From the NCBI GenBank assembly GCA_020055645.1, contig CM034549.1, positions 7,440,001-7,504,000 on the forward strand: a DNA stretch of 64,000 nucleotides, written 5' to 3'. The position numbers were made by a program, and so were the translations under genes. Positions 15,366 through 59,244 of this stretch are shown here, in pieces. This DNA is from Tomocerus qinae (Eukaryota; Arthropoda; Collembola; Entomobryomorpha; Tomoceridae). Numbering within the stretch: the stretch's first letter is position 1; every line of letters begins with the position of its first letter. The notes beneath the pieces were generated by a model, which was given only the letters and a program-made list of their open reading frames with translations, had not been told where the DNA came from and made no database searches.

Positions 15366-17211
15366 TCAAAGCCACTTAGTAATGAATGACACTTTCATAT
15401 TGGATCCAATGATTAACGAGGGTAGCCTTTGAGTTAGATCGGCCAAACATGATTGTGTTATCTGTTATTGGTTGAAAATTGATTAGTAAGTTGCATTTAA
15501 AATGAAAACTTTTTTGGTCTGTCTCAACAGAATTAATGAAAAAATCGTATTACATTAAAATAACTTAATTTTCACTTACTTTAGGACATTTTAACTCCAG
15601 GTTTATTAATTTCTGTAGTACAGAAATTCCCAAGTACCCCGTAATATCATTCAAGATTTGTGATGAAAGTTTTAATGTTCTGAGTTCTGGAATAAAATCA
15701 TAGAAATTAAATAGGTAAACTATTTCACAAAAAGTGTATTCTAAATTGACGTGAAAAGTTACCTTTTAAATCCCTGATTGATGATTTGATACTCTTGATT
15801 GTGAAATCAGACTGACGATAGTCTTCACTTGTACTCAATCGAAAACAGTCAAACGCATCTAGTCCTAAATATACTGCATTATATCTGTCTTCGGTATTAG
15901 CATTACGAACAGGGTTGGTCTCAGAAATATCAAGACCGATGAGATTGGGCCAAGACTTCCAAATGCATTCTAGTGCTTCCGGTTCTTGATATAATACTGT
16001 AATATTTTCGACTAGTGGAAATACATTGGCTAAACTGACGACGAAATCATGCTGAGAAGCTTTCAGCCTGGCAGGTAATAGTAATCTATGAAGATTAAAG
16101 GAGGAATTAGTCGGGGAAGCGATTTTGTTTTTGATTGGGAAAATTTCTTCAATAAAATGAAAATTATTGATTTCAAACTTTTTCAAGTCCAGAATTCTAA
16201 GATTTGGAAAATAAACCGACAAAGAGGGAAAAGAGAAACGGACTGTATGAACCGGAAAAGCTATTCTTTGTAGGGCAACCATTTGGGGAAAAGTTATTGC
16301 TAACGACGAAGAAGCCGGCAGCACAAGATTTTGCAATGTTGTGGATTGTTGTTGACAAAGTTGAGAAAGTAGTTTCCCCAGTTGATTGTTTTGGTCTTCT
16401 ACTGTACAGTTGGAGAAAGTTAGTTTGCTCAATTTGAATTTTGATTGAGTTAGAAGGGATAAAATATCTAGAGCTGTTTCAAAATCGAAGTCTACACTTT
16501 TAATTTTAACATTTTTGATTTTAGAATGCCGACTGGAATCAAGAGACTTAAGGGCCTTGATTTGGTTGCTGACATCATTGGACCAACCGAATTTAAAGGA
16601 AATCATGTTTGGACACATATTTAGCAAATCTAAAGTAATGCCAAAACTGCATTCTTGAGTCAAAGAAACTTTTTTTACAGTTTGCAAAAGGGGACTTTCT
16701 GCTTCTGGAGAAAAAATCCTGTCTGTGGTATGAAATGAAGTGGGAAGATTTTTTAGCTGTAGTTCCTTGAGGTTACTAAATTTTCCGAGCAAACTGAATA
16801 AATAAATTGGTCCTATATTTGATCTATAGCAATTCAAACTGATCTTATTTACTGAGGGACCAAAATCCTGGGAAAATTTTTCAACTTGGTATACTGAAGG
16901 TCCAGAGAAATAGAATGTAGCCATGGGCAAATATCCACAATCTGTGTTTTTCATCAGCGTTGTAAATTCCTCCATTCCATCCACATTAGAGCTGAAATTC
17001 GTTTTGACACGTAATCGAATTTCAGGTAGACATTCTTCTTTCCATGAACGACAAACCAGTCTGCATGTTTTCAATTGTTCAAGGTTGCAATGACGAAAAA
17101 TCTCTTTTCGCACCTACAAGAAACGAAAACTGCACACTCATTCCTTAAAGACAGTTATCAATTTACAAATGTATTTCTTACAAGATAAATTTTCAAAGGA
17201 TCTTTCTCCAT
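15366..17211 (-). CDS. F-box/leucine-rich repeat protein FB1
   Basis: Four exons: 17182-17211 (ten codons, MEKDPLKIYL), 15763-17113, 15580-15686 and 15366-15461; 527 residues with all phases closing. The F-box spans the first junction (PLKIYL, then KEIFRHCNLEQLKTCRLVC, W). The rest is leucine-rich (LKELQLKNLP, LRILDLKKFE and similar), as in substrate adaptors of SCF ubiquitin ligases; that role is inferred from family. The tiny first exon and the ITQ-starting last exon are conserved in FB2-FB4, which supports the model. The protein is a mosaic: the middle (GPIYLFSLLGKFSNLK to the DVSNQIKALK region) is nearly identical to FB2, while the later part (LAITFPQMVALQRIAFPVH to FEINNF) matches FB3. 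It lacks the roughly 65-residue insertion of FB3 and FB4. Confidence 0.85.
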
Positions 17212-22251: not shown

Positions 22252-22718
22252 AAGGCATCTTGACTGTCCCAATATTTTAACAATTTACTGATAATAGAAT
22301 GCAAGAATGAATAGTTCTATTTAAATGGTCACAAATCGTCACAAACGACATTGGGCCATATGATTAAAACGAAGCTTTTGCTTTCCCTTCAATTCTTGAA
22401 GCGAAAGCTTCGAAGTTTATGAATAAAAATCGAAGGGAAAGATTTAGCTACTGCCTGGATCCAAGTCAAAAGTAAAAGCTACGGTAGCCATGACTTTCGC
22501 TTCGAAATGTAGTCAACACTGAATTTTGACATGAATAAAACCGTAGCAAATGCTTCTCCTACATAGTGAAAGCTAGGAAAATGAGGATCACCTCATGAAG
22601 TGGATCCAGCTTTGACTACAACCCGATTTCCGAATGTTTAGCCAAACAATTTTTAGATATAAACGCAATAAAAGCTTAATCAGACGACAGTTACGCAAAT
22701 TGCAGTTTACATACCATA

Positions 22719-23811
22719 ATGGCAGAACTGCCATTACCAGTTATTCGCTCTAGAAAGCTTTACAAAACACGCAAGCACACCGAAACAAAAAACTTCCGAA
22801 GCTTGTATCGTTTCGACGAAGAAAATGTAGAATGGATTTCAAACCATTTTCTTGGAGAAGGTTTCGAAACAAGGGGTGGCGCTTTGTCAAGTAAGCAGCA
22901 GATGCAGACATTTTTGAGATATATTTCTGACCCGGGGTTTCAAACTGGAGTGGCAGAAGATCTTGGCATTGATCAGTCAACGGCTTGCAAAACGATTCAC
23001 AAGGTTAGAATAGATTAAAATTTTGTCTAATGTCCGATAGCTAATGCACATTTTTTAAATCAATGTTTGCCTTAAATTGCAGGTTAAAAGGAAAATATTG
23101 GAGAAAATGAGCGCATGGATAAGATTTCCTGGAAGTGCAGCTGAAATTTTAGTAGCTAAAAATGAATGGCAGCAAAAGTTTTCAATTCCTTGCATAATTG
23201 GTGCTATAGATTGCACACATATACGCATAACTAAACCATTCATTAGCGGGGACGAGTACATCAATAGAAAACGCTACGCAAGTATAAATGTGCAAGCAAC
23301 TTGTAATGCCAATGAAGTTTTCACCAGTGTCTCTGCCGAGTACCCAGGCTCAGTGCACGACAGTCGAATTTTCAAAAATTCTGAAATTTGTCGATTTCTT
23401 AAAACTAAGACAGAAGAAACAGCATTACTTGGAGACAGCGGATACGCCTTGGCTCCTTGGTTGATCACTCCGTTTGAAAATCCGGATTCCGATGTACAGA
23501 GATACTTCAATAGGATTTACGCAAAAGAACGGGTGATTATTGAAAGATGCTTTGGTCAAGTGAAGAGAAGATTTCCTATTTTGCACTACAAAGTTCGAGT
23601 CGCTACTGCCAGTGTGCCTGGGATCATTTTATGCTGCTTTATTCTCCATAATGTTGCCAAGTATTTAAATGATGCAAATGATTTTGATGAGCTAGAGATT
23701 GAAGATTTGCCGTTCGTAGAGGAAGAACAGTCTGACGCTCAAATTAGAGCTCGTGGACAAATGGTACGACAGCGAATGGCTGAAATTGTTTACAGAAACC
23801 GTGATTCTTAA
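22719..23811 (+). CDS. Harbinger transposase (HARBI1-like DDE nuclease)
   Basis: Two exons, 22719-23003 and 23083-23811, join in frame (TIHK then VKRK) for 337 residues, near the usual length of about 350. An N-terminal helix-turn-helix region contains GVAEDLGIDQSTACKTIHK. The DDE catalytic core reads GAIDCTHI (first Asp), GDSGYAL (second Asp) and IIERCFGQVKRR (Glu). The metal-dependent nuclease would excise and insert the element together with the Myb-like partner. The alternative, a domesticated HARBI1, is unlikely because the gene lies inside intact inverted repeats. Confidence 0.95.
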
Positions 23812-27168: not shown

Positions 27169-29103
27169 TCACTTCTTTGTAAAATTTGCATTTGACCAAC
27201 TGATTAACGAGGGTAACCTTTGAGCAAGGGCGTCCAAACATGTTTGTGTTATCTGTTATTTTATGATTTAAAAAATGACAGGTAAGATTTATAAAATAAA
27301 ATCAAAAACTCATTAGCAAAATATTTACTGTAAAATGGATGCAAAATGCATTCAGATAGTTCACTTACCTTCGGACATTTTAGCTCCAGGTGTATTAATT
27401 TCTGAAGTGCAGAAATTCCCAAGTAGCCCGTAACATCCGTCAAGTCTAGTGACGAAAGTTTCAACATTCTGAGTTCTGGAATAAAATCATAGAAATTCAA
27501 TAGATAAAGTAGTAGTATTTATACAATAAAAATATAAAAGTATGTATTCTAAATTAAAATAAACGTTACCTTTTAAATCCCTGATGGATGGTTTGATAAC
27601 TTCAATTGTGAAATCAGGAAGACAATAGTCTTGCCTAGACAGTTGAAAACAGTCAGATGCTTCTAGCCCTACATATATTGCATTATGCTTGTCGGGGTTT
27701 AAGTTAGAGTTGTCCTCAGACAGGTATACTACTTCAATATTCCTGTCTCCGATACTAGCATTACGAAAGGGGCTGGTCTCAGAAATATCAAGAGCGATGA
27801 GATTGGGCCAAGACTTCCAAATGTGTTCTAGGATTTCCGGTTCTTTATATATTACTGTAATAGTTTGGACTAGTGGAAATATGTTGGCTAAATTGACGAT
27901 GAAATCTTGCTGCGAAGCTTTCAAATTTGCAGGTAGCAATAAGGTATGTAGATTAAAGGTGGAATTATTCGGGGCAATAATGTTGTTTCTGTTTCGGAAA
28001 ATTTCATTATTGAAATTAAATTTATACACCTGAAACTTTTTCAAGTCCAGAATTTTAAGATTTGGAAAAGAAAGCGAAATAGAAGGAAAAGAGAAACGGA
28101 CGGCATCATCCTGAATAGCTATTTCTCTCAGAGCAACCATTTGTGGAAATGTTACTGTTAAGCCTGTGGAATACAAAAAAATCGGCCAAGGAGCCAAAGA
28201 CGGCAACACTAGTTTTTGCAAGGTTTCCGATTGTTGTTGGAAAAGTTGAAGAATTAGTTTTCCCAGTTGGTTTTTACGGTCGGATAATACTGAACAGTTG
28301 GAGAAAGTTAGTTGCTCCAGTTCGAATTTTGATTGAGTCAGAAGTGACAAAATTTCTAGGGCTGTTTCAATTCCTAAATACACACCTTTAATTTTAATTA
28401 TTTTGATTTTAGAATGCCGACTAGAATCAAGACACTTAAGGGCCTTGATTTGGTTGCTGACGTCATTGGACCAACCGAATTTAAAGGAAATCATGTTTGG
28501 ACACATGTTTAGCAAATCTAAAGTAATGCCAAAGCTGCATTCTTGGGTCAAAGAAACTTTTTTCACAGTTTGCAAAATGGGAATTTCCGCTTCTGGAGAA
28601 AAAATCCTGTCTGTGGTATGAAATGAAGTGGGAAGATTTTTTAGCTGTAGTTCCTTGAGGTTACTAAATTTTCCAAGCAAACTGAATAAATAAATTGGTC
28701 CTATATTTGTTTCCTTGCAATTCATACGGATAATATTTACTGAGGGACCAAAATTCATTGAAAATGGTTCAACTTGATGTACTGCTAGTTCTAAGAAGTA
28801 GAAGCTTGACATTGGCAAATAATCCGCATTATTCATTAGCACTGTAAATTTATTTCTTTCGTCCAAGTCTTTGGAGATGATAGTTTTGGCCCGTTTGCGA
28901 ATGTGAGGGCGGCATTCTTCTTTCCACAAATGACAAACCAGTCTGCATCTTTTCAATTCTTCTAAGCCGCAATAACTGAAAACGGTGCTCAGTATCTATC
29001 AAAAACGAAAACGATAATTTTTCATTCATTCTTAAAACTAAACAAGCTTTAATTTATTTCAAATTACAAGAGAGTTCAACAACGGATTGTTTCCCTGCTG
29101 CAT
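27169..29103 (-). CDS. F-box/leucine-rich repeat protein FB2
   Basis: Exons 29068-29103 (MQQGNNPLLNSL), 27570-28995, 27369-27475 and 27169-27252 give 550 residues with all phases closing. The F-box reads NPLLNSL then ILSTVFSYCGLEELKRCRLV, with a following W. Leucine-rich segments follow. The last exon starts ITQTCLDALAQRLPSLI. Compared with FB3 it lacks the roughly 65-residue N-terminal insertion, and near the middle it has an extra segment with the motif WPIFLYSTGLTVTFP. Its role as an SCF-type substrate adaptor is a family inference. The upstream palindrome at 29487 is shared with FB3 and FB4. Confidence 0.86.
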
Positions 29104-35209: not shown

Positions 35210-37292
35210 TCAGAACTTGTATAATGTTGCTTTTTTGTCATTTTCATTTGACCAAGTGATTAAGGAAGGTAGCCTTTTAGCAAGGTCGTCCAAACATGTT
35301 TGTGTTATCTATTATTATTTAAAAATTGATTGGTATTAAAAAACTCACTATATAGTAAAAATTTGAAATACAAAAGCAAAATCCACATGACATTATTTAA
35401 TTTTCACTTACATTAGGGCAATGTAGCTCCAGGTTCATTAATTTCTGTAACGAAGAAATTCCCAAGTAGCCCGTAATATCCGTCACGTCTAGTGACGAAA
35501 GTTTCAATGTTCTGAGTTCTAGTATAAAATCATAGAAATTAAATGGATAAACTATAGTACTTTTTTTACAATGAAAATATAACAAATAAAGTGTAATCTA
35601 AATTAAAATATAAGTTACCTTTCAAATCCCTGATGGATGGTTTGATAATTTCAATTGTGAAATCAGGTTGACGATAGTCTTGACTTGCCTGCAATTGAAA
35701 ACAGTCAGATACTTCTAGTCCCAAGTATGCTGCATTATCCCTGTCTCCGATTTTAACAGTACGCAAAAAGCCGCGGGCGGTCTCAAAAATATCAAGACCG
35801 ATGATATTGGGCCAAAACTTCCAGATGCATTCTAGTATTTCCGGTTCTTGATATAATACTGTAATATTTTCGACCAATGGAAATTGATTGGCTATACTGA
35901 CGATTAAATTATGCTGAGAAGCTTTCAGCATGGTAGGTAATAGTAATCTATGAAGATTAAAGGAGGAATTAGTCGGGCCGGCGATGTTGTTTCTGATCGG
36001 TAAAATTTCTTCCATTAAATTGAAATTATTGATTTCAAACTTTTTCAAGTCCAGAATTCTAAGATTTGGAAAATAAACCGACAAAGAGGGAAAAGAGAAA
36101 CCGACTGAATGAACCGGAAAAGCTATTCTTTGTAGAGCAACCATTTGGGGAAAAGTAATTGCTAACGACAAAGAAGCCGGGAGCACAAGATTTTGCAATG
36201 TTGTGGATTGTTGTTGACAAAGTTGAGAAAGTAGTTTCCCCAGTAGGTTGGTTTTGTCTTCTAATACTGTACAGCTGGAGAAAGTTAATTGCTCCAGTTC
36301 GAATTTTGATTGAGTCAGAAGTGACAAAATTTCTAGGGCTGTTTCAAAATCGAAATCTATACCTTTCATTTTAACATTTTTGATTTTTGAATGGCGACTG
36401 GAATCAAGAGACTTAAGAGCCTTGATTTGGTTTCTGGCGTTATTAAAGCCACCGAATTTAAATGTGGTCATGTTTGGACACATGTTTAGCAAATCTAAAG
36501 TAATGCCGAAACTGCATCCATGGGGCAAAGAAACCTTTTTCACAGTTTGTAAAACCGGAATTTCTGCTTCTGTAGAAAAAATGCTGTCGCTGGTATCAAA
36601 AGTAGGGGGAAGATATTTCAGCTCTAGTTCTTCGAGGTTACTAAATTTTTCGAGCAAGCTGAATAAATCAATTGGTTCTATATGCTTTCTCAGTTGTTGA
36701 GGTTGAAACAATGGTCCACAGAAAGTGAAGCTTGAAGTTGAAGAAGATTGACCCATTCTATCCAAATTAAAGCCTCGGTTAGCACAAACCATGTTTGTGA
36801 ATTGAAGATAAGTGGGAGTCTGTGATTCTTCAGGGTAATCACAGTTTGTGAACAAACTGGGTAAACCAGCTTCTCCCATCGTTAGCCCTGCATAGTCTAA
36901 GCCAATTCTTTTTACTGAGGGACCAAAATCCTGGGAAAATTGTTCAATTTGATTTAGTGTCGGTCCAGAGAAGTCGAAACGAGACATTGGCAAATAGTCA
37001 CAGTCCCCATTTTTCATTAGCTTTGTAAATTCATTAATTCTTGGCAAGTTTTTGGAGTTGAAATTTGTTTTGGCACGTTTGCGAATGTGATGGCCGCATT
37101 CGGTTTTCCATAAATGACAAACCAGTCTGCATCTTTTCAATTCTTCTAAGCCACAATAACTGAAAACTTTGTTCAGCACCTGTAAAAAACGAAAACAGTA
37201 ATTTTGAATCTATTCTTAAAACTAAACAAGCTTTAAAATTATTTATTTCACATTACAATGGAGTTCCGCAACGGATTTTTTTCCTGCTCCAT
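35210..37292 (-). CDS. F-box/leucine-rich repeat protein FB3
   Basis: Exons 37257-37292 (MEQEKNPLRNSI; an extra Met lies just upstream), 35619-37179, 35412-35518 and 35210-35308 give 600 residues, phases closing. The F-box reads NPLRNSI then VLNKVFSYCGLEELKRC and W. Between the F-box region and the first strong leucine-rich units it has a roughly 65-residue segment (GEAGLPSLFTNCDYPEE ... GQSSSTSSFTFCGP) shared with FB4 but absent from FB1 and FB2. The last exon starts ITQTCLDDLAKRLPSLIT. Role as for FB1. Confidence 0.87.
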
Positions 37293-43060: not shown

Positions 43061-45168
43061 TCACCACAGCATTTTCTTTACTTGGTTTAATGTAGCTCTT
43101 TTGTCATTTTCATTTGACCAACTGATTAAGGATGGTAGCCTTTTAGCAAGGTCGTCCAAACATGTTTGTGTTATCTATTATTGTTTGAAAATTGATTGGT
43201 AAGTTATTTTAAATAAAAACTTCACCTGTAAAAACTTTACTGAAATATAAAAGCAAAATCCATATGACATTATTTATTAATTTTCACTTACATTCGGACA
43301 ATGTAGCTCCAGGTTCATTAATTTCTGTAACATAGAAATTCCCAAGTAGCCAGTAATATCCGTCAAGTCAAATGACGAAAGTTTCAATGTTCTGAGTTCT
43401 TTAATAGAATCATAGAAATTAAATAGATAAATATTTTTATTCAATAAAACAAAAGGGTATTCCAAATTGAATTGATTACCTTGTAAATCCCTGATGGATG
43501 GTTTGATAATTTCAATTGTGAAATCCGGTTGACGATAGTCTTGACTTGCTCGCAATTGAAAATAGTCAGATGCTTCTAGTCCTAAGTAGGCTGCCGCTAG
43601 TCTCGATGCTTCATTATCCCTGTCTTCGATATTAACAACACAAAAAGGGGAAGGGGTTGGCCCAGAAATATCAAGACCGATGAGATTGGGCCAAGACTTC
43701 CAAATGCATTCTAGTATTTCCGGTTCTTGATATAATATTGTAATATTTTCGACCAATGGAAATTCATTGGCTAAACTGACGACTAAGTGATGCTGAGAAG
43801 CTTGCAGCATGGTCGGTAATAGTAATCTATGAAGATTAAAGGAGGAATTAGTAGGGGCGGCGATGTTGTTTATGAACGGGACAGTTTTTTCATTAAAACC
43901 ATCGGAATCAAACTTTTTCAAGTCCAGAATTCTAAGATTTGGAAAATAAACCGACAAAGAGGGAAAAGAGAAACCGACTTCATGAACCGGAAAAGCTATT
44001 TTTTGTAGAGCGACCATTTGGGGGAAAGGGAAAGTTAGTGCTAACGAAAAAGAAGTCGGTAGCACAAGTTTGTGCAATGTTGTGGATTGTTGCTGGAAAA
44101 TTTGACAAAGTAATCCTCCCAGTTGGTTGTTTCGGTCTTCTAATATTAAACAGTTGGAGAAACTTAGTTGCTCAAGTTCGAATTTTGATTGAGTCAGAAG
44201 AGAAAATATTTCTAGGGCTGTTTCAAATTCTAAATACCCTCCTTTAATTTTAATTATTTTGATTTTAGAATGGCGACTAGAATCAAGAGACTTAAGGGCC
44301 TTGATTTGGTTACTGGCGTTATCAATGCCACCGAATTTAAACGTAGTCATGTTTGGACACATGTTTAGCAAATCTAAAGTAATGCCGAAACTGCATGCTT
44401 GGAGCAAAGAAACCGTTTTCACAGTTAGTAAAAGGGGAATTTCTGCTTCTGGAGAAAAAGCCCTTTCTGTGGTATCAAACGAAGTGGGAAGATTTGTCAG
44501 CTCTATTTCCTTGAGATTACTAAATTTTCCGAGCAATCTGAATAAATCAATTGGTTCTAATTTTTTTGTCGGTTGTTCAGGTTGATACACTGGTCCAAAG
44601 AAATTGATGCTTGAAGTTGAAGAAGATTGACACATTCTATCCAAATTAAAGCCTTGGTAAGTATCAAGCCTTCTGCTTGCGCTATGAAAAAAAATGGGAA
44701 GATATGCCCGCTGTGGTTCAATGGAAGGACAGTTTTGGAACCAACTGGCTAAACAAGGCTGTCCTGACGCTTCCCCTGCATGATCTAAACAAATTTTATT
44801 TACTGAGGGACCAAAATCCTGGGAAAATTGTTCAATTTGATTTACTGCCGGTCCAAAGAAGTCGAAATTTGACATTGGCAAATAATCCGCGTTATTCATT
44901 AGCACTGTAAATTCATTTCTTCTAGCCGAGTCTTCGAAGCTGAAATTTGTTTTGGCTCGTTTGCGAATGTGAGGGCGGCATTCTGCTTTCCATAAATGAC
45001 AAACCAGTCTGCATCTTTTCAATTCTTCTAAGCCGCAATAACTGAAAACGTTGCTCAGTACCTATAAAAATGAAAACGATAATTTCGCATTCATTCTTAA
45101 ATCTTAACTAGCTTTAATTTATTTCAAATTACAATAGAGTTCCGCAAAGGATTGTTTCCCTGCTCCAT
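43061..45168 (-). CDS. F-box/leucine-rich repeat protein FB4
   Basis: Exons 45133-45168 (MEQGNNPLRNSI), 43480-45061, 43292-43398 and 43061-43174 give 612 residues, phases closing. The F-box reads NPLRNSI, then VLSNVFSYCGLEELKRC and W. It shares the roughly 65-residue insertion with FB3 (FNLDRMCQSSSTSS, then VYQPEQPTKKLEPID). The third intron (43399-43479) is 81 bp and has no in-frame stop, so a retained-intron product would add 27 residues; in the other paralogues the intron is 76-100 bp. Leucine-rich SCF-adaptor role inferred as for FB1. Confidence 0.87.
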
Positions 45169-46042: not shown

Positions 46043-49000
46043 TTACAATTCATTGAATTGAATGTTTAAGTTTTGGAAGATACCTTCCGCTTTGGCATAT
46101 TGAAACATGTATTTGACAGTTTCAGATGGATGTGGGATCATAGTTTCTATATTTGGGACAACTTCTAATAATTTCCTACCAATACGGCTAATATTTCCAT
46201 TGTCTTTCATCGCGTGTCTAAAGATAGGGCTAATGCCTGCCACCATTTCATTGACATCTTTGTTTCCAAGAGCCTCTTTAAAAATTTCAATTAGTGAATT
46301 TTTATCCTCCATTACTATTTTCGCGAATTCATCCCCTTCCACTATTCTTAGCTTTAGTCCAGATTTTTCAGCGACCTCGGCAAGGTTGGCCGAAGTTACA
46401 GGACTGGAGCCAAAGATATTGTAAAGACCTGTGTGGGCTTTGTCGTTGAAAAAAACTAATGAAACTATTTTGGCAGCACAGTCAACAGGTAACACTAACC
46501 ATCCACCCGGGATTGAAGGGAAGACTTTCAATTGCAAACCTGCGAGAAGAACATTCATGATGAAATTGGTATCCAGAGTAAAATGTCCTGTGCTACTATT
46601 TCCAATTAAAGTTGGAAATCTCATAACTGTACAAGGAATGCCACGCTCTATGGCTTGTCTCATCAATTTTTCACCCACAAGTTTTGTAAATGCATAGCCC
46701 TCCCCAAGAGTCTTCCCATTATTTGATTCCGATGGTAAATCGTCGGAAATGAAGCCATCATCATCAAGTTCAGTTGCAGCAGTGTATGAAGAAGTAAAAG
46801 CAACTCGCTTTGTTCGAGATGTTGTTGCAAATTCAAGAATATTAATTGTTCCCAGTACATTTACTGTACGAATATCTTTAGTTGTTTTAGATTTCTTATA
46901 CATTTCAATATGATTGGCTTTCACTGCGCAGTGGAATATTGCATCAACTTTCTTTGATAATTCAACGTATTCATTACTTGCCATTCCAAAATGCTTTTCA
47001 GTGATATCTCCCAAAACAATAGAAACATTATTTTTAAATGCATGACCTAATTTAAATTTCTTTAAATTGTCGTCCAATTTTTTATTGGCAATTTTGATAT
47101 TTTTCCCTCGTACCAAACAGATAATATTAATATCATTCCTACTCGCTAATTCTGCTAATAAATAAGGACCAAAGTGCCCTGTGGATCCTGTAACTAAAAT
47201 AGTTTTAACCATAGAAGGTAATATTGGTTCGTCAATTTTGCAAATATGCTCCGGTAGAACGGAATCTTCTTTCGCTAATTTCTGTTGTTCTTCCTGTACA
47301 TCATTATCTGATGTAATAGAAGAAGATTCACAAACTGACATTGTCAATCCAGCTAAGAATTTGCTAAGACTTGACAAAGATGGATAATCTAACAAAGATG
47401 TAGGGTTAAGTTGTAAATTCTTTCCGAAAATTTGCTGCAGCTTATTTCTCATTTCAACCGCCATCAAAGAATCTAGCCCCATTTCCGAAAAAGTTTGATA
47501 CTCATCAATCCCTTCTGTTTCTGGAAGTTTTAGAGTTTGTCTAATTATTGACTCTATGCATTGTTTAATTACTAATTCCCTTTCTTCTTCGCGCAAATTC
47601 TCAATGCTATTCCAAAATTGTTCTGTTTGGGCAGATGATTGAGGATTTGCAGTCTGTTGACCTGCAGTTAATTCGGACATATACTCCGCAGAATTAGGAA
47701 AGGATTCTGCAAACTCAGCAGCGTTTATTTGTATCACCGCAGTCTGTGTGTATGGTCGACTCATAATGAACTTTAAGGCTGCTATTCCTTGACCTGCAAT
47801 AAAATTGAGCTTCATTGTATTTTTTCATCAAAATTTTTAATTAAAAATAAAATTGATTTTCAATATTTCATTTACCTGGACTGAAAGGAGTAACGCCGAA
47901 GGCCCCTTCCTTTCCATACACTGTATTAGTAGCAGCCCCGATTTCCGACCATGCTAATTAAATACAAACAAAAACAATTAATTCAACTATTTATCAAGAT
48001 AAAAACGTAAAAAATTGTTTTTCTGCATGGTAATATGAATTTTATATTAATAAAATCATGATGATATTTGTACTGACCTCCCCAATTTATTGTCTGAGCC
48101 GGCAGACCTAGTGAATGTCTGAAATGTACAAGGGAATCCAAAAACATGTTAGCAGCAGCATGATTACTTTGTCCAGGAGGACCCATGATTGCGGCTGCTG
48201 AAGAAAACAGGACAAAATGCTCCAAATTCATGGATTTTGTCAAGTTGTGCAGATTCCAGCCTCCGCTCACTTTAGCATTGAAGACAGTTTGGAATTTCTC
48301 CCACGATTGACTTGTCATTGTTCCATCAGACAGAGAACCAGCTGAATGAATGACTCCTCGTAATGGGGGCATTTCATTCCCAATAATTTCAAATAGTTCC
48401 TTGCATTGTACTAGATTACCGATATCAACCTGTCTAGTAAGAACATGAACTCCCCCCGTACTTAAGGATTTCAACACCTGCTGAGTCTTTTCATTCGGTG
48501 CAGTTCTTCCTACTAGAACTACGTGTTTAGCTCCGCATTTGACCATCCATTTTCCTACTTCTAAACCAATTCCACCTAAACCACCTGTGATTAAGTACGT
48601 TGAATTTTTGCTGAAGAGCAAATCATTAGTAAACCTTTTCCCAAGACTTTCTTTAGTTTCGGGCATTGCTACCACAATTTTTCCAATATGTTGAGCCTTG
48701 AGAAAATAATGCAGGGCTTCTTTAATTTGGGAAACGACGAATCGGGTAAAGGGCAAAGGTTTGACCTTATTTTCTTGAAACGTTTCGTTCATTTTGGACA
48801 TTAAAATTTTCATTTCATCGTCTCCAACTGTTTCAAGATTGACTATTGTATATTTTACATCTGGTCGAAGCTTTTTCACATCTTCGACCTGCCAGATATT
48901 CATTTTCCCCATTTCTACAAACCTTGCATTAACCGCACAAACTTTTAATGATGTTTCTTTAAATCCTGGCCCTGTTAGCGAATTTAAAACTAAATCAACA

Positions 49001-52000
49001 CCTTTTCCGTTAGTTACTTTGTGAATTTCATCCCCAAATGTCAATTCACGAGAGTGGAAAACGTTTTGAAGACCAATTGATCGAAGATAAGCTCTTTTCC
49101 TCTTGCTTCCTGCGGTGGCAATGATTTTTGCCCCTATATTTCTGGCAATTTGAATTGCTACTAGACCAACTCCTCCAGATGCAACATGAATTAAAATTGT
49201 CTCTCCCATTTTCAAATTTCCTACATTGACCAAACAATGATAAGCTGTCAAGTAGACTGACGGCAGAGTAGAAGCCTCTGCAAATGTAAAATACTTGGGT
49301 TTGTGAAGAATGAGATCAGAAGGAACAATAACATGACTAGCAACTGAACTTGTATTAGATATACCGAATACTTCATCCCCAATTTTATATTTTGTCACAT
49401 GACTGCCAGTCCGACAAACAACTCCTGAGAAGTCTGTTCCTACTGCTTCAAACCGAGTAAAATACTCCTCTGGTTTAAGAATTACTAATACATCTCTGAA
49501 ATTCAATGCTGTGGCCCGTACAGTAATTTCTACTTCGTTTGATTCTAATTGACGATATTTCATGGCTTTAAAAGTAACATCATTTATATTTTTAGTTCCT
49601 GGAATTACTACTTCATAATTAACATTAGGTAAAACTAAAGGAGCCGGTGGAGTTGCTAAAGGAGAAATTCTCGACACAAAACGCTTATTCTTCCGATATG
49701 CTATTAAATACTCTGGCTCCGTGCTCCACATCTGAAAAAATATTTGGTCTCTCTCAATTTTTGAATCACAATTGTCAGGATCCAAATCAACCAAAAACAC
49801 TTTCATTTCTTGACGTTCGTTTTTACAACTTTTAAATATTCCCCAGGCTGTTCCTTTAGAAGGATCTCCGTGACCTTGATCCCCAATAAAGTGAACTCCT
49901 CGAGTAGCAATTACCAATTTGCTCGGCTTTGCAGACGAACAAATGTACTTGCAAACATTCAAACATACTTTAGAGAAATCATCCCCATTATCGTTTTTGT
50001 CTAGCCCTAAAAGCAAAATATAACCACGGATGTCATAATCGCTATTAAAAGATGTCATAAGCTTTGAAATATCATTTTCATTACATAAATCTATAAAATA
50101 TGAAAGTTTAGTTTGATTTTCTACTGAATCTCCAGCACTGCTAACCATCATAGCAATATCGCCAGAATTTTCAATTGACTCTTTTAAATTTTGGGCTAAG
50201 GTCGTATCTTTCCCAGAAAAGACGACCCAAGATGGGGATTTTCCTATCACAGAATTTAAATATTGTTGAGTTGTGTACATAGAATTTTGAGGTGAAGCCT
50301 GAGCGATTACGACACTGACGTATTCTTTGTCGTCCGAAATATTTGTCGCAGATGTGAAGCCACTTTTCTTTGCAACATCAAACCATGTTTGTCCATCAAC
50401 GCACGGATGGTGTTGCCGAATATCGTAATCTTTAAAGCACCAATAACCTTCGAGCATTCCAAATATCAAATCAATGTGTCTAATAGGTTTAAGCATTTCC
50501 ATCAATGCAAAAATACCAGACGGGGCTAATAGCTGTCGAATATTTACTACAGAACATTGTAAGATCTCTGTCGCGTGAATAACGTTTGCGGCTATAACAA
50601 TATCATAACAATGAGGTGCGAATCCTTGGAGTTTAGGATCTTTGTCGATATTCAATACTTTGTAGTCCACTCCCGATACATTTTTGAACATTTTCTCAGC
50701 TTCTACCAAAAAGTGTGGAGAGATATCAGTAAATGTATACCGAAATTGTATTCCTTGTTTCTGAAGACCATTTATTATCTCCTTAGATGTAGAGCCACTT
50801 CCAGCTCCTATTTCTAAAATCCTAACAATAGATCCTTTGTTCTTTAAGTGTGATAACAATACTTGCAAATATGCACTCAGCCTCAAGTTAGCTAACCGAG
50901 TTCCTTTTCCTTCGGTGTAAACAATGAGTGGATTCACCACGCTGTCGTCTTCCCCAAAAAGCAAATTCACTCCAGTAATTTTACCTGAAAGTAATTCACT
51001 CAAATGTGTTCCGCAATGTTCAAGAACAGCTCGTTCGTTAAATGCTTCATTTAGCGTGTCAAATTGACTAATTGTTTCATTTCTTCGAATTATTGCTTCG
51101 TTAAGTGGTAGTACATTTTTATGAACTACCCACTCTACTTCCCCGTTCTCAAATGTCTTTAACAAAATCCCATCTTCTGCCAGTATTGTCAGCAGCCGAT
51201 TTACATATTGAGAATGTATGGGTGAAATTAAAATGTCAGCCATAAGGTTTTCTGTAGTAAATCTGTCTCCTAACTTTGGTTTCCACCCCAATTCATAAAA
51301 TGCTATGATAAAGTAGTACGTACAAAGAGTCTCTGCAATATCACAACCTGCTATTATATCTGGGTTCGTTTTTTCAATCATAAGAGAATCTACCTCTTTT
51401 GCAGTATTTCTGAATGGTAATAAATTGGATAAATCTACTCTGGCATGGAATGGGGCATCCCTAGGCCTCCATACTTCTTGGTACATTCCGGGAAGTTTAT
51501 TTTTTGTACCAGTGATAACATTCATAAATGAACCTATTGACGTCTTCACTAATGTCACGCCGGACATGGTAGCCAATAAAGTTTTGTTATCGTCGTATAA
51601 ATTAATCGTTCCATTTTCTCGACTTGCATGTACCAGAAAATATTCCGGATTTGTTTTTGATATCATCAAAAACTTTGAAATTCCTACAGGAAGATGTAAA
51701 TCCAATGTATTTTTACCTGTTAGCAGTCCAAACGATTGAATCATCGCATCGAGTACGATAGGATGGTAAATGTATTCTTTCATATTGCCCGCCTGAACAG
51801 GAGCGAGGACTTTTGTCAAAATTTCATCTTCTCCCGCCCATATTTCTGAGATACTTTGGAATGTATCACCAAAATTAATACCGAGTTGGGAAGTTGTTTT
51901 GTAAAATTCTTCTGCTGACTTTTCCTCGGTGCATCGCATTTTAATTGCAGAAATAGGATCCTCAACAGTGTCAGTAAAGATACCTAAATTTAATGAAACA

Positions 52001-55000
52001 TTAGCACTTGCAAATTGTGCCCAACCTTTTTCATCGTTGTATCCATTTAGATATTTATATAGGAAGACTCTGATGAGAAACATATTATCTTTCCCTTCTA
52101 TTTCTGAAGCAACGATTTGAATTTTATGTTCTTTGTCCTCCTCTAGCTCCATTGGAGCTTCAACTACAAAATTTTCGACGAGTAAAGCACTATTGTGGAT
52201 TCTAAGATTAAAAACCTCTTTGCCAGCTGCGAGAATTAACTCTAGAAATCCTGCACCAGGTAATACAATTACATTTGCTATTTGATGATCTTTAAGGTAT
52301 GAAAAATCTTGCAAATCCCAAGTAGAATGATAAACTTGATCTTTAATTACGGCCAATGGAACTTTCCTACCTAGCATCGGATGTAGAGGCTTTGAAATTT
52401 GTTCTGACTTAGATTCAATCCAAAACTTTTGTCTTTGGAATGGATAATGGGGTAAATCTATCTTTTTTCTAGCATAGCAAGACTCCATCTTTTCCCAATC
52501 GATATTGATGTCATTTACGTACAATTTAGACAAACTGTCTAATAAAGTCTGCCAATTATCTTCATTTCTCCTAATAGAAGGAAGCCAAAGGCAGTTATCC
52601 TGCTCTGTTAAAGACAAGTTGTTCAATGTCAAAGCAAGTAAAATTGGATGAGCCCCGATTTCTATAAAAATATTACATCCTTGTTGACGAACCAAGTTAA
52701 TTCCCTTTGCAAAATCAACCGAATAGCGAGCATGGTTTTGCCAATATTTTGCCGTAATATCCTCTGAGGTAAGGATCTTCCCAATTGATCCTGAGATGTA
52801 TGTACATGTGGGCGATTTATACGAAATTTTTTTGGCAATCAGTCCAAACTGATCAAGCATACCTTCCATTGCCCGAGAATGAAATGCATGGCTCGCAGCA
52901 AGCAATTGTGATTTCATATTTTTATCTGTACAAAAATCGGAAAACTTTTTCAATGATGGGACTTCCCCAGCTACAACTGTTTCGTCAGTTGAATTAACGA
53001 CTGCAATATCCACCCATTCCTCAGCGTTGGCCGTGGAAAAGGATTCAATTAAACTTTCCACGCTTTTCTTTGATGCCCTAACTGCGAGCATTCCTCCAGT
53101 GGGTAAATTGCTGATCAAACGGCTTCTTTCGGAAACAAGGATCAAAGCTTCTTCAAGTGTCATAACACCAGAAGCTACCGACGCTGCGAATTCTCCAACA
53201 CTATGACCCAACACACAATCTGGCTTAATTCCAAAACTTTCCCACAGTTTCAATAAACTGTACTCAATACAGAAAATAGATATCTGACTGTAAATCGTAT
53301 CGTCAAGATTATTTTTGACACCAGATCCCCAAAGAACATCCACCAGCGAAATGCCAACATTATTTACCATTATTTCATTACAAGAATTAAATGCGCTTTC
53401 AAAAACAGGATTTGTATCATAAAGAGTTTTTGCCATTCCAGAATATTGAGAACCTTGTCCCGTGAATAGAAAAGCAAATTTCGGTTTATCAACTACAGTC
53501 GCTTCGGGAGGGAAAATAGGATTTTGTAATTTATCTTGTAAATCCTCAATATTTCTAGCAATTGCTGTGAAACGATATTTTAAGTGTGATCTTCCTGTGT
53601 TTGCTGTATAGCACATATTTTCAATACTAAGCCAAGGAGTTTTGTTTAAGAACGAAGCGTAACTAGAAATCATATCTTTCCGAGCGTTTTCTGATTTCGC
53701 TGAAAGTGTTAATATGTGACAAGGTCTTTCTTTTTTAAATTGGCTAGCAATAGAAGTTTGGAAAATCTGTGGTGGCTCTTCTAAAATAATATGCACATTT
53801 GTTCCACTAATACCGAAAGAGCTTACTCCTGCAATTCTTTTCTTGTCATTTCTTGGCCAAGGGATGGCATGTTTTGGAATTAAGGCCGGAAGGGAATCCA
53901 AATCAATGTTGGGATTTACAATGTCTAAATTTCTATGAGGAGGAATAATTTCTTTCTCCATGGCCAAAATAACCTTGATGATTCCTGCCAAACCCGCTGC
54001 GGATTCGGTATGGCCGATGTTTGTTTTGACAGAGCCAACAACAACAGGTTTTTCCCTATACGCTTTATAACCAGCAGAAATAGCGGCGAATTCAATAGGA
54101 TCCCCAATAGGGGTTCCTGTTCCATGAGCCTCGATGTAATCTACCTCCTCAGGTCTCACTCCAGAAACCTTTAACGCATCGCGAATAGCAATTTCCTGGC
54201 AGTATTTACTAGGAGTTCCGAAACTGGAAGTAGTTCCCTCGTTACTCAGTCCTGAACCACGGATTATCGAAAGAATTCTGTCCCCGTCTTTCAACGCATC
54301 GGAATATCTTTTTAGTACCAGTACAGCAACACCCTCTGCCCTTGCAAATCCGTCTGCCTTTTCGTCAAAGGTTTTACAATGACCATCTTTAGCAAGAATA
54401 GCAACCTCGCTGTGTGGAAAGTGGGAAATCAAAAGATTGACTCCAGTCGCTAGTGCTAGGTCCGTTTCCCTTTTCTTTAAACTATCACAAGCCAAATGTA
54501 AACTAACCATCGAAGAAGAACATCCCGACTCTGTAGCTACGTTCGGCCCATTTAGTCCTAGAAAATAAGATACACGGGCTGATGTAGCACTGAATGCATT
54601 TCCCAATATCACATGATGGAAATCCCGGCCACTGCTATTTTCACTTAACAAACGTTCGTATTCGTGAGTCCACACACCAGAGAAAACTCCCGTGTTGCTA
54701 CCTTTTAACTTTTCAGGGTTAACTGCCGCATTTTCTAATGCTTCCCAAGCTACCTCTACCATTAGCCTTTGCTGTGGATCCATGAATGCAGCTTCCCTAG
54801 GACTGATCCCGAAAAATTTTGCGTCGAATTCGTCGATTGGACATTTTAGAAAGCCTGCCTTGATAGATGTATAGCGTGGATCATCACTTCGACACTCTGG
54901 AAGACGTTCCAATGGAATGGATGTAATACCATCTGAACCAGTCGCCAACAGATCCCAGAATTCATTGATATTGTTCGCTCCAGGAAACCGACAACTATGT

Positions 55001-55455
55001 CCAATAATGGCAATCGATTCCTGAATATCAGTATGCAATTTTTTGTCAACACCTTCCTGGCAATTAAAAGCTTTCTTCAATTTCCATGTATCGACTCCCT
55101 GCAACTCAACCTATAAATATTTCATTCATTAGTTAGCTGTAGCTCTCCCAAACAAAAATTTTAAAACCTCAATCAATAAAATAACGAAGGTTTACGTACC
55201 TCACGATGCAAGAAAGATGGCAAAACATCTTTAGCAAATGTCTCGATCCAAAGTTTTGAAATATACTGCAATCAAATAATTTTCAATTTTTATGATTCCT
55301 AAATATTGACCAGATCATGACAGAATTTATTGAAATACTATTCATACGTTGATTTTCTCATCATTATCCAGTTTATTGATGTCATTTAAAAGAAACCAAG
55401 GCTTTATGTCAATTAAGTTCCAGATTTTTGCACCACTCACAGCCAGTCTATACAT
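46043..55455 (-). CDS. Highly reducing type I polyketide synthase with terminal reductase
   Basis: Five exons (55348-55455, 55200-55265, 48078-55110, 47876-47953, 46043-47793) encode 3,011 residues. In order: an unrecognised N-terminal 88 residues; ketosynthase (Cys about 254 in SGCSSSM, EAHGTGTPIGDP, VKTNIGH); malonyl-type acyltransferase (GHSVGE about 695, HAFHS); dehydratase (His in LKDHQIANVIVLPG, Asp in LDAMIQ about 1180); C-methyltransferase (LEIGAGSGS about 1492); enoyl reductase (HVASGGVGLVAIQ about 2036); ketoreductase (TGGLGGIG about 2237, SSAAA, with His in the NHAAAN active-site position); carrier domain (GLDSL, Ser about 2535); and an NADPH-dependent thioester reductase (VTGSTGHFG about 2629, GYAFTK about 2795). 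There is no thioesterase, so reductive release as an aldehyde or alcohol is expected. Methyl-branched, reduced chains are possible. It would be a large cytosolic homodimer. Introns show it is a host gene, not bacterial contamination. Product unknown. Confidence 0.95.
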
Positions 55456-55535: not shown

Positions 55536-56412
55536 TTACGATTCAGAGTCATGTCCAGTGGGAATTCGTTTAATAATATTCATAGCCATAATTCTGATTT
55601 TTGTTCCAAGTTGCTTAATATGTTTCCAATTTTCAACAAATTTTCCATCTATACACAGCAGGTAATTGTAAGGAAAATAGTTGGAATTTCGATATGCATT
55701 AAAAATAAAGTATGTGACAATAGAATAGAAAAATAAATTAGTATGACAAAAATGAATACTGGTATTTACCATATATAAATGAGTTCAAGTTCACAGCAGA
55801 TGTCATATTCAAGTAGATTTCATATGAAGGCTTCGCAATAAGCAGAGAAATATCAAGATGAGAACGGTTGCTAACATCAGTAATCGCTGATGAATCTTCT
55901 AATTCAAATAATTCATCGCTATTTTTGATAACCTAAAATATAGCATCGAATTAATATATTGGTTGCAGAAAGAGAAGCAGATGGATCAATAAAAATGTGC
56001 ATCCTGCCTTAAGAATATTTATAAATCGTTTACCATTAGATTTGGGTTGATAAAAATACATTTTTGGTACATAGTCAAGCTCCAGACAAACACTCTTGCT
56101 TGATCCAGGGACGACAATTGAGCTGTTTTCAAATCCGTTTGGAAATCCAGGATGACATCAAACGCATCCGATAAAACAATTCTGTTTTAAATGAAGAAAC
56201 ATACAAGAATTATTCCGAATATCTCAAATACGTAAGAATAGTAAAATATAGCTATAGAGGGACTTGCCGATAGGATGAAGTGACATCTTGAGAAATGAGC
56301 AATACAATCTTGGCAGTTGTCACAACTCTTCGGAGAGACTTGGCCAACACGAGAGCTTGTAGACAAGTTTCCTCATTGTAGGCCACTGTCACCCATGCAC
56401 ATTCTGCAGCAA
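55536..56412 (-). CDS. Glycogenin-like (GT8) protein, divergent and probably inactive; 5' end not found
   Basis: Four phase-consistent exons: 56268-56412, 56034-56181, 55770-55932 and 55536-55648 (about 189 residues). The first has a GC-AG donor (CG|GCAAGT). The start AWVTVAYNEETCLQALVLAK and SLRRV closely follow the glycogenin N-terminus, and FVWSLTMYQKCIFI matches its WxLTxYxKCxFxD strand. However, the metal-binding DAD is replaced by NPN, and the NSG and GDQGLLN regions are missing. The protein ends early compared with the usual 330 or more residues. It is therefore unlikely to transfer glucose. At least one upstream exon carrying the start is missing from my model. It lies just 5' of the PKS in the same direction, with only about 80 bp between its stop and the PKS start. 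Confidence 0.65.
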
Positions 56413-59244
56413 CTGTATTCAGAAAATAATTTATCACGATTTCGAACACACAAACGTTTGATTAAATGAAATTTTCAATAGATTTATTTGTACACTAAGG
56501 CAGGAGTGAGAATTTAATTTAAGAATACTAAAATATTCCTGATTTCTGCAGATCAATGTCAACCTCACGCGGGATATGCCTTAAAAATTACGTAGCATTT
56601 ACTGCCATACTTATTGAAGTTTATCGCAGTATTCCAAAACTAATTCTAGCCCTGTGCAATTATAAATGCTAACCAAGGAGAAGATTCAATTAAAAGAGAT
56701 TCACCTGGCATTTTCAAAATTCTAAATATGAGATTTGAGAAAATCAACAGTTGCTAATTGTTGTAGATTTCGTTTAGATTATAGGTAGACGGTATTATAT
56801 TTATTGGTATAGGTCGCTCTGTTTTAAAAACTGAACTGGGGATATTCTGGAGAAAGTTTCCCTATTTATCTACTTGAATTGTGCGTTGTAAAATTTTGGA
56901 CTAGTTCATTAGTGTCGTTAGAAAAAAATCATGGTATGATTATAATATAAAGCATGCCGTGATGGAAAACCGGTAGCAGACAAAAGCAAAGCATGTGAAA
57001 TTTCTGAAATTTGCTCCAGTTCACAAAGGGTTCTACTATAGTATGCTATTACAGGTTGAGACTTTGAGACTAAATTGGACTTTATTAGTATAGCAAGAAT
57101 TACCTTTGGGAAAAGGTTTAAAGCTCAGTGCTGAATGTATATATATAAGTAGTATAAGTACAAAATTCACCTTTTCATATTATGTACTGTTCCTGGCGGA
57201 TATCAATAGATAATTAATACCTATAATTAACGCAATCTGGATGGAACTAGAATATAATATAGAATATTTAGCAACCTACCAAGTTAACATAATTATCTTC
57301 ATGTGTATCAAAATGATCTACCTTTAAGAACTATTTTTCGAAAACAGAACCTACTTATGTTGAATGTGAATTTACGCACAGCAAATTAAATCAATAATGC
57401 AGAGAAATACTGTCGGGATAGGTTCTCAAACATGTCCGTGAAAAAGAATACAGGATTCATTAGTTTTCAGACAATTATAAACTGAGATTTAAAAATTCTT
57501 AATTACAAAATTTTCCATCTACGTAACCAAAGCCTGGTACAATGCTATATACGTAGACACGAAAGACGCACAATGACTACGGAACTACATTTACGTCAAC
57601 AAAAGAACACTTGAAATGATTGAAAGTGATGGATCGCATAAAGATTTCATAATTAATAAGCTGGCGTATCTTTGTTCTTTATTTTATTAATTGCAGCCTT
57701 GCAGTAGTGCATCTGCAGTGTAAGTTCATAATTGTAATCATTCAAATTGCAAAGAGCAACATTAGCATTGTTCATTTACTTTTGATTGCATTTGATCCAG
57801 AATGGTATTCTCACGCAGTCACATAAAATAGAACTAACCAACAACGAAAAGTTTGACACGGTCACGGCTTAAAATTAACAGCTACTCTGTGGGAATAAAT
57901 ATTAAAGCTCATCAGTAAATAAAAGCTAGCAATTGATTGTTTATAATTGCTCATAATTGCTTTTATACACAACATTTTATAGGTTGGTAAATCCAAGAAT
58001 AATTTTACTTATTATCTTGTGAGAACAAAATACTTGCCATGCAATACAATAGTCATGCTGTTATCAATTTCTTTTTTTGATCTATCATCAGTATCACTCA
58101 TAATCCAACTTTTTCAAATACAATCAAGCAAAATTAAGAAACAATAATTAAAACAAGAAAATATTGTTACATTCACTGAAGGTAATGTGAAAATGCATTG
58201 AAATTATTAGCAATTAGGATTGATACAGTAATGAAGACCTTAAGAGTAACTGATTTCAATAGATGCGTGTATAAATCAAGCATTTTATAACTAAATTGAA
58301 TAATTGTATCATTCAATTCCCAAGAACTGTCGTTTCTTTTTCGTCCTTTGCAGATATTGCAGAATAGATTTAAATGGATGTGAACTAACCTTAGACATGA
58401 AGTGAATTGATACATTTTAAATCGAACGCACCATGCTTCTATCGTGTCTATAAGAAATGAATTAACTTGTTAACTTACTCCTGCTACTGGCTGTAGACTA
58501 GTAAAATAATTAAATTGGTCCGTGGACGTGAGTGACACAAGAGGACGAGTGACACTATACAATTAATAGACATTCTGTAGTGTTGATTTATTCCCTGGGC
58601 GAAGCCTGAGCAGTCCGTGCTATATAAATACCATAAAACTAAAAAATCAAACATAATAATTTAATAAATTGGCTAAAATAAAAATATAATGGTATGTATC
58701 TGTAGAGTTTCATCAATCCCATCATGATATAGGATTGAAAATAATATCATCAGTATAGATACCCCAACCCCTACCGCTTATGAATGTCGGCAAACTGGGA
58801 GTAAGGAAAAGGAAATGGCAGAATAAAACAATAATATCGTTTGGATGATTGGTTAATTAAATGCCATTATATTAAATTTGTAATATGAGCAGTATCAGGT
58901 ATATCAGGAAGTACTAATTCATCGTATGGAATCATGCAACTGTAAATGATGACATAATATATGGTAATAAATGCAGACAAAGGAGAAAGAAATTAGTTTT
59001 TTGTTTTTTATTTGCATATTTTAAATTTTGAAACTGCATTCAGCCGATTGGTAAACTATCAACAGTGGCCTATTCATTTTGAGAACCAATATTGAAAAGA
59101 CTAAGAAGTTGATTGGAAAAATTCATCCAGAGATAAAATCCAGTGAAAAAATTAAAGACTAAACTTGACTATAAGGTCAAAAAATCCTTATTTCTGGCAG
59201 TGGAGTTCAACCCCGAATGAATTGACAGGTGGAAGGAAAGAAGT
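56413..59244. other. Intergenic region upstream of the glycogenin-like gene
   Basis: 2.8 kb that should hold the first exon and promoter of the glycogenin-like gene. I found no start exon with the required phase. No other gene, repeat or RNA was recognised. Confidence 0.5.

Follow-up and report, generated by a model that had tools for sequence, protein, structure and literature searches.

The window, a stretch of 64,000 nucleotides of the Tomocerus qinae genome (G000:C4:7440001-7504000; eukaryotic assembly of 334 Mb in 115 contigs), carries on its minus strand two long open reading frames, 47983-55110 (2375 aa) and 46043-47824 (593 aa). A 78-base exon flanked by two GT-AG introns links them near the end of a ketoreductase (KR). 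Upstream of the exon encoding the ketosynthase (KS), six short coding exons (56412-55200) keep the frame; of the introns behind them, one is GC-AG and five are GT-AG. Spliced in silico, the ten coding exons of the polyketide synthase (PKS) gene form one open frame that encodes about 3,199 aa (56711-46043, minus strand). Splice sites were picked by us such that the frame stays open, and the exon joins are predictions from the sequence. The initial annotation had placed the gene at 46043-55455, which is too short: The gene extends upstream to approximately 56711. The exons are, in order of translation:

56705-56711, minus strand: probable first coding exon, ATGCCAG with donor gtga, gives MP(V); recurs in paralogues
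56268-56412, minus strand: glycogenin-like exon 1, first beta strands, followed by the GC-AG intron
56034-56181, minus strand: glycogenin-like exon 2, NPN replaces the catalytic DxD (INPNL)
55770-55932, minus strand: glycogenin-like exon 3
55540-55648, minus strand: glycogenin-like exon 4, with matches in paralogues
55348-55447, minus strand: glycogenin-like exon 5, AKIWNLIDIKPW
55200-55265, minus strand: glycogenin-like exon 6, C-terminal part, joins the KS exon
48078-55110, minus strand: 7-kb exon with linker, KS, acyltransferase (AT), dehydratase (DH), C-methyltransferase (cMT), enoyl reductase (ER), and most of KR
47876-47953, minus strand: 78-base exon inside the KR end
46043-47793, minus strand: last exon with KR end, acyl carrier protein (ACP), reductase (R), and stop

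The start exon ATGCCAG with its gt donor also precedes the glycogenin exon in two paralogues (L141 and L142), and ATGTCAG does so in L015. Among the other four paralogues scanned, L026 shows a seven-base candidate (ATGAAAG), L016 and L029 show candidates of other lengths, and the upstream scan of L012 yielded no start-exon candidate. The window itself holds a second, weaker candidate, ATGCTAC. The KS exon begins right behind the acceptor TATAG. The motif that opens the KS lies at residue 34, well ahead of the first methionine at residue 110. Without a methionine ahead of the KS, this exon must splice to an upstream exon. The glycogenin part packs six introns, or seven if the start exon is counted in, into some 0.73 kb, whereas the roughly 8.9 kb of the PKS part have two. 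This distribution agrees with an intron-poor PKS of foreign origin that became attached to a host gene.

Pfam assigns KS, AT, DH, methyltransferase, ER, and KR domains to the 2375-aa frame, and ACP plus a thioester reductase (NAD_binding_4, 1.6e-44) to the 593-aa frame. With KS-AT-DH-cMT-ER-KR-ACP-R on one chain, the order corresponds to the layout of a type I reducing PKS:

53926-55020, minus strand: ketosynthase, Cys (ESGCSSS) and the two His kept (Pfam, motifs)
52510-53472, minus strand: acyltransferase, GHSVG and HAFH (Pfam, motifs)
51541-52383, minus strand: dehydratase, HxxxG without its Gly, His and Asp kept (Pfam, motifs)
50353-51333, minus strand: C-methyltransferase region, SAM-binding fold with LEIGAGSG, plus a sub-threshold HTH_51 match
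48670-49542, minus strand: enoyl reductase (Pfam, motifs)
48079-48603, minus strand: ketoreductase, Tyr replaced by His, GQSNHAAAN (Pfam, motifs)
47354-47554, minus strand: acyl carrier protein, GLDSLMAVE (Pfam, reading by eye)
46466-47194, minus strand: thioester reductase, GSTGHFG and YxxxK by eye; closest solved structure MxaA

These Pfam domains and the single spliced frame bear out the initial annotation in its main claim, a complete, host-encoded, intron-bearing reducing PKS that has a cMT and a domain for reductive release. Its count of nine parts holds once the N-terminus that it left unassigned is recognised as a degenerate glycogenin domain.

The catalytic Cys-His-His of KS, the Ser of AT, and the Ser of ACP (in GLDSL) are all found. 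Moreover, the KS, AT, cMT, and ER motifs and the His and Asp of DH are kept in the window and in 12 long-frame paralogues, with one change in the SAM motif of L016, and the Gly of the DH motif is missing in all 13. HAFH in AT presumably denotes the malonyl type; branches should therefore come from cMT and SAM. The R domain combines an NAD(P)-binding motif with a reductase-family match, scoring 152.4 against PF07993 (cut-off 20.1) and 187.8 against TIGR01746, which is under the cut-off of 213.35. Among solved structures, the terminal reductase MxaA is closest (4.4e-34); it belongs to a bacterial line and yields an alcohol.

The catalytic Tyr of KR was not found in the window or in any of the 11 readable paralogues (L012 being unreadable), all of which carry His at this site, as do L020, L022, and L023. 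Decay of one gene was considered as an explanation and rejected, since the change is family-wide in the copies read. The Tyr is retained in separate modular PKS arrays of the same genome, and His occupies its site in 3 of 47 bacterial KR motifs; the His may be a tolerated variant. We take KR to be working, given that DH and ER, whose steps depend on it, are conserved and that the same His occurs in some bacterial modules. The predicted KR function is the weakest link of the proposed pathway: If KR were dead throughout the family, reduction of the chain would be incomplete.

The product of the N-terminal exons matches the solved structures of glycogenin-2 and glycogenin-1 (phmmer, E down to 3.9e-16, residues 6-145), with the alignment stopping near residue 145. 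In this N-terminal part, Pfam found no family, and a GT8 profile search of the genome did not match the domain; given the Pfam blank, routine annotation would miss it. The sole apparent true glycogenin seen in the genome lies at C1:83.795 Mb (L146), with LDADTL intact and no KS or R in reach. Its intron after LDADTL has the same position and phase as the window intron after INPNLM, which indicates that the fused domain most likely stems from an animal glycogenin gene. By sequence and gene structure, the N-terminal domain is a glycogenin homologue.

In contrast to glycogenin (GT8), the window N-terminus is fused to a PKS and lacks the DxD motif. DxD is absent from all 17 fused copies read at this site, comprising the window, 13 of the 20 loci L012-L031 (the other seven are unreadable there), L144, and also L147 and L149, which were classed as fused from their position before a KS. 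The replacing residues are NPN, NSD, NPH, YPH, DPH, KPD, HSN, SPN, NPD, SSD, and GPD, and the fused domain looks catalytically dead. Judged by dN/dS, the DxD-less domain is under purifying selection: The glycogenin exons have a median of 0.217 and a maximum of 0.35, compared with medians of 0.065 for KS and 0.073 for cMT, across nine close relatives (36 pairs, 35 usable per domain) and over the tblastn-alignable exon stretches only. Many pairs approach saturation in dS; the six in which the glycogenin dS is below 0.6 give dN/dS values of 0.22-0.35.

Close to ninety paralogues in the genome apparently have this glycogenin-PKS layout. We counted 127 KS matches, in which four pairs are pieces of one KS, leaving about 123 places. 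A genome search with a 48-residue exon-1 query gave 110 matches. Behind 88 of these, a KS follows downstream in the same orientation at no more than 10 kb (median 2.9 kb), each time a distinct KS match, where 0.2 such pairs are expected by chance from match numbers and genome size. Only two pairs are arranged otherwise, one on opposite strands and one downstream on the same strand. An R domain (PF07993) follows within 13 kb of 98 of the 127 KS matches, and 81 KSs have both the glycogenin exon and the R domain. Thus, the earlier description of the gene as rare and single does not hold for this genome.

The 22 exon-1 matches that have no KS within 10 kb were considered as free-standing glycogenins. 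This was rejected, because an R domain lies downstream within 20 kb in 11 of them and L144 has a KS. Three of these loci were read: The KS of L144 is split by an intron, while exon 1 alone is visible in 2.5-3 kb at L143 and L145. From their surroundings, at least some of the 22 are predicted to be further fusions. Among the 11 that lack an R domain in reach is the locus at C1:83.795 Mb, the one seen to retain DxD. Conversely, 39 KS matches are without an exon-1 match in 10 kb, nine of them in modular arrays. Outside these arrays, the open frame that contains the KS match is 2840 aa or longer in 46 of 118 cases. A 33-residue exon-5 query yielded 11 matches, from the window and its closest relatives, as this exon is too diverged elsewhere for a census.

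The modular arrays (L001-L008; C1:34004020-34019998, C1:35263003-35286506, and C100:3304-11683) contain tandem KSs spaced by about 7.6 kb, some of which score identically, with frames reaching 3769 aa. L001 shows the KS motif DTACSSS, the KR Tyr is kept in seven of eight loci (L003 shows no KR motif), and none has a glycogenin exon match. Apparently, these are multi-module PKSs of the animal assembly, distinct from the glycogenin family.

Compared with the PDB, the window KS scores best in a single stretch against CurL (399 bits), ahead of LovB (266) and the fatty acid synthase (FAS) 5my0 (241); the 568 bits against 7zma are summed over two matched stretches. Among the best 80 of 169 relatives in a scan of bacterial genomes, KS identity reaches 50% (a Parachlamydiaceae MAG, L060, and Microcystis, L063), with many cyanobacteria near the top, and in the 20 loci listed first it is 43-50%. 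A quick LG+G4 tree with midpoint root was built from 164 KS rows: 41 of the family including the window, four from the modular arrays (four further array copies were dropped), and 119 bacterial, limited to at most two per locus after removal of short matches; fungal, protist, FAS, or animal FAS-like PKS (AFPK) rows are not part of it. In this tree, the family KSs form one side of a branch (SH-aLRT 99) placed among bacterial KSs, the topology singling out no bacterial neighbour as the nearest, and all 45 of the genome's own KSs in the tree fall among bacterial-type KSs. Further, the window protein resembles bacterial modular cis-AT PKSs (Brasilonema L064 and L065, Xenococcus L061, CurL) in its layout: L064 is collinear with it from mid-KS to ACP (31.5% identity, 1109 bits), and the KR signature GQSNHAAAN is common to the window, L064, and L065. 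In contrast to the window gene, the bacterial loci examined have several modules and no glycogenin, and the window protein has its own terminal R. By these comparisons, the KS is of the bacterial modular type.

The initial annotation had set a KS grouping with bacteria, coupled with artefactual introns, against its reading. Half of this pattern is seen, since the KS is of the bacterial modular type and stands among bacterial KSs; the introns are real in that they restore one frame, and they cluster in the glycogenin part.

At C1:53.1-53.5 Mb and C1:57.07-57.56 Mb, KSs (L045, L047, L050) nest in the family and have no exon-1 match within 10 kb upstream; a loss of the glycogenin domain in this group is possible from the sequence. 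Near the window, at C4:6.95-8.03 Mb, family KSs sit in short open frames of 300-390 aa, which probably reflects introns within the PKS part; these may have been gained after the fusion.

Four other explanations deserve consideration. The locus could comprise two adjacent genes, a degenerate glycogenin-like gene and a PKS with its own start, as the exon joins are predictions and nine of 20 genes carry a methionine before the KS on the KS exon. In this set (the window and 19 of the 20 loci L012-L031, L021 being unreadable), the other 11 genes including the window have no such methionine, the frame is continuous, and 88 pairs agree in order and strand versus two arranged otherwise, which makes separate genes highly improbable. 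Likewise, an active glycogenin domain that glycosylates the enzyme or its product, or primes glycogen on the enzyme, would agree with the retention of whole-length exons and with purifying selection. The loss of DxD from every fused copy read, set against its intact state in the true glycogenin, renders such activity quite improbable.

With regard to the PKS half, descent from an old animal enzyme of the AFPK/FAS line or from a fungus, rather than from bacteria, is the reading to which we give appreciable weight while judging it unlikely. Fungal highly reducing PKSs have a similar single-chain layout with cMT. AFPKs, too, are animal single-chain reducing PKSs, and a few arthropod sequences of the AFPK study end in R domains, according to its accessible text (PMC10764717). 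Unlike AFPKs, which that text places in a clade with animal FAS (PMC10764717), the window protein has a pseudo-glycogenin N-terminus and a KS scoring nearer to bacterial modular KSs. Against this descent stand also the ranking of CurL over LovB and FAS, the separate KS clade among bacterial KSs in a tree of rows from this genome and from bacteria, and the KR signature found in Brasilonema modules as well. With such a tree, a fungal or protist donor keeps some probability. Bacterial contamination or an assembly artefact that inflates copy number might be suspected from the bacterial-type KS and the many copies on the single contig C1. Introns and attached glycogenin exons, a contig of 33.8 Mb, a GC content of 35-38% inside the window range of 31-41%, and KS dS values from 0.26 to saturation among the nine close relatives leave this explanation a negligible probability.

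Hence, an acquired bacterial-type PKS joined to a duplicated host glycogenin, giving an expanded chimera with a dead GT8 domain that would make branched alcohols or aldehydes, is the reading that we hold to be probable. That the family represents a new megasynthase class of around ninety genes, in which a host pseudo-glycogenin scaffold sits on an acquired bacterial PKS to produce methyl-branched surface lipids, is a bolder proposal that we advance tentatively. In the reading held to be probable, a PKS of bacterial type would have entered the animal genome by horizontal transfer and landed under a duplicated host glycogenin gene, gaining a promoter, a start codon, and an intron-rich 5' half; sugar transfer would have been lost, and the chimera would have multiplied. 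Glycogenin itself dimerises. The enzyme would form a homodimer through KS, with the pseudo-glycogenin acting as an N-terminal scaffold or docking domain instead of transferring sugar. AT would load malonyl units, cMT would add SAM-derived branches, KR, DH, and ER would reduce the chain, and R with NADPH would free it as an aldehyde or primary alcohol. Likely products are methyl-branched fatty alcohols or aldehydes, for example precursors of the branched epicuticular lipids of springtails.

The domain composition makes a methyl-branched alcohol or aldehyde the likely product, perhaps a cuticular lipid. In Anurida maritima, a 2,4,6-trimethylhexadecyl ester of an acid with the identical skeleton is described, and 9,17-dimethylpentatriacontane is a lipid of Tomocerus vulgaris (PMC11321324). 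The accessible text of this source ascribes the non-terpenoid lipids to the fatty acid pathway and does not contain the word "polyketide" (PMC11321324). Such a branched alcohol would be the direct product of a reducing PKS that carries a cMT and releases the chain through R, the link to the lipids being our suggestion. Thus, the alcohol or aldehyde and the branching foreseen in the initial annotation follow from the predicted domains and fit some published springtail lipids.

A springtail genome rich in type I PKS genes has a precedent in Folsomia candida, where 30 type I PKS clusters were called by antiSMASH and, in the accessible text, most cluster genes are described as horizontally acquired, so that a foreign origin is proposed in both species (PMC5490193). 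In contrast to the present genome with 88 KSs behind a glycogenin exon, "glycogenin" occurs zero times in the main text of that report (PMC5490193). Titles and abstract beginnings of the open literature, a scope mostly outside subscription journals, yielded no report of a PKS-glycogenin fusion, and no open-literature match was found for Collembola together with glycogenin. The gene is real and intact; its parts are known separately, their combination is apparently new, and its function is predicted from sequence. PKSs have been reported as few or absent in arthropods, where AFPKs predominate (PMC10764717), in contrast to the 127 KS matches here. The locus offers a testable gene structure for how a biosynthetic gene that is foreign and poor in introns may turn into a gene of the animal through fusion with a duplicated gene of the host; if true, this would be domestication through capture of the 5' half of a host gene. 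It also introduces to PKS biology a glycogenin fold that looks dead yet is under constraint, and the family becomes a candidate source of the unusual methyl-branched lipids that springtails have.

Beside the PKS gene, the window contains, as read by eye, a local cluster of four similar F-box/leucine-rich-like genes at 15725-17113, 27487-28995, 35566-37209, and 43277-45061, for the last of which Pfam found no family. By eye, 8478-11801 reads as a LINE endonuclease/reverse transcriptase and 22680-23811 as a PIF/Harbinger-type transposase, and near-identical copper monooxygenase-type duplicates (7388-7796 and 12994-13402) flank the LINE-like frame. Across the assembly, TTAGG repeats give 400 overlapping matches versus none in the reversed control, which fits an arthropod.
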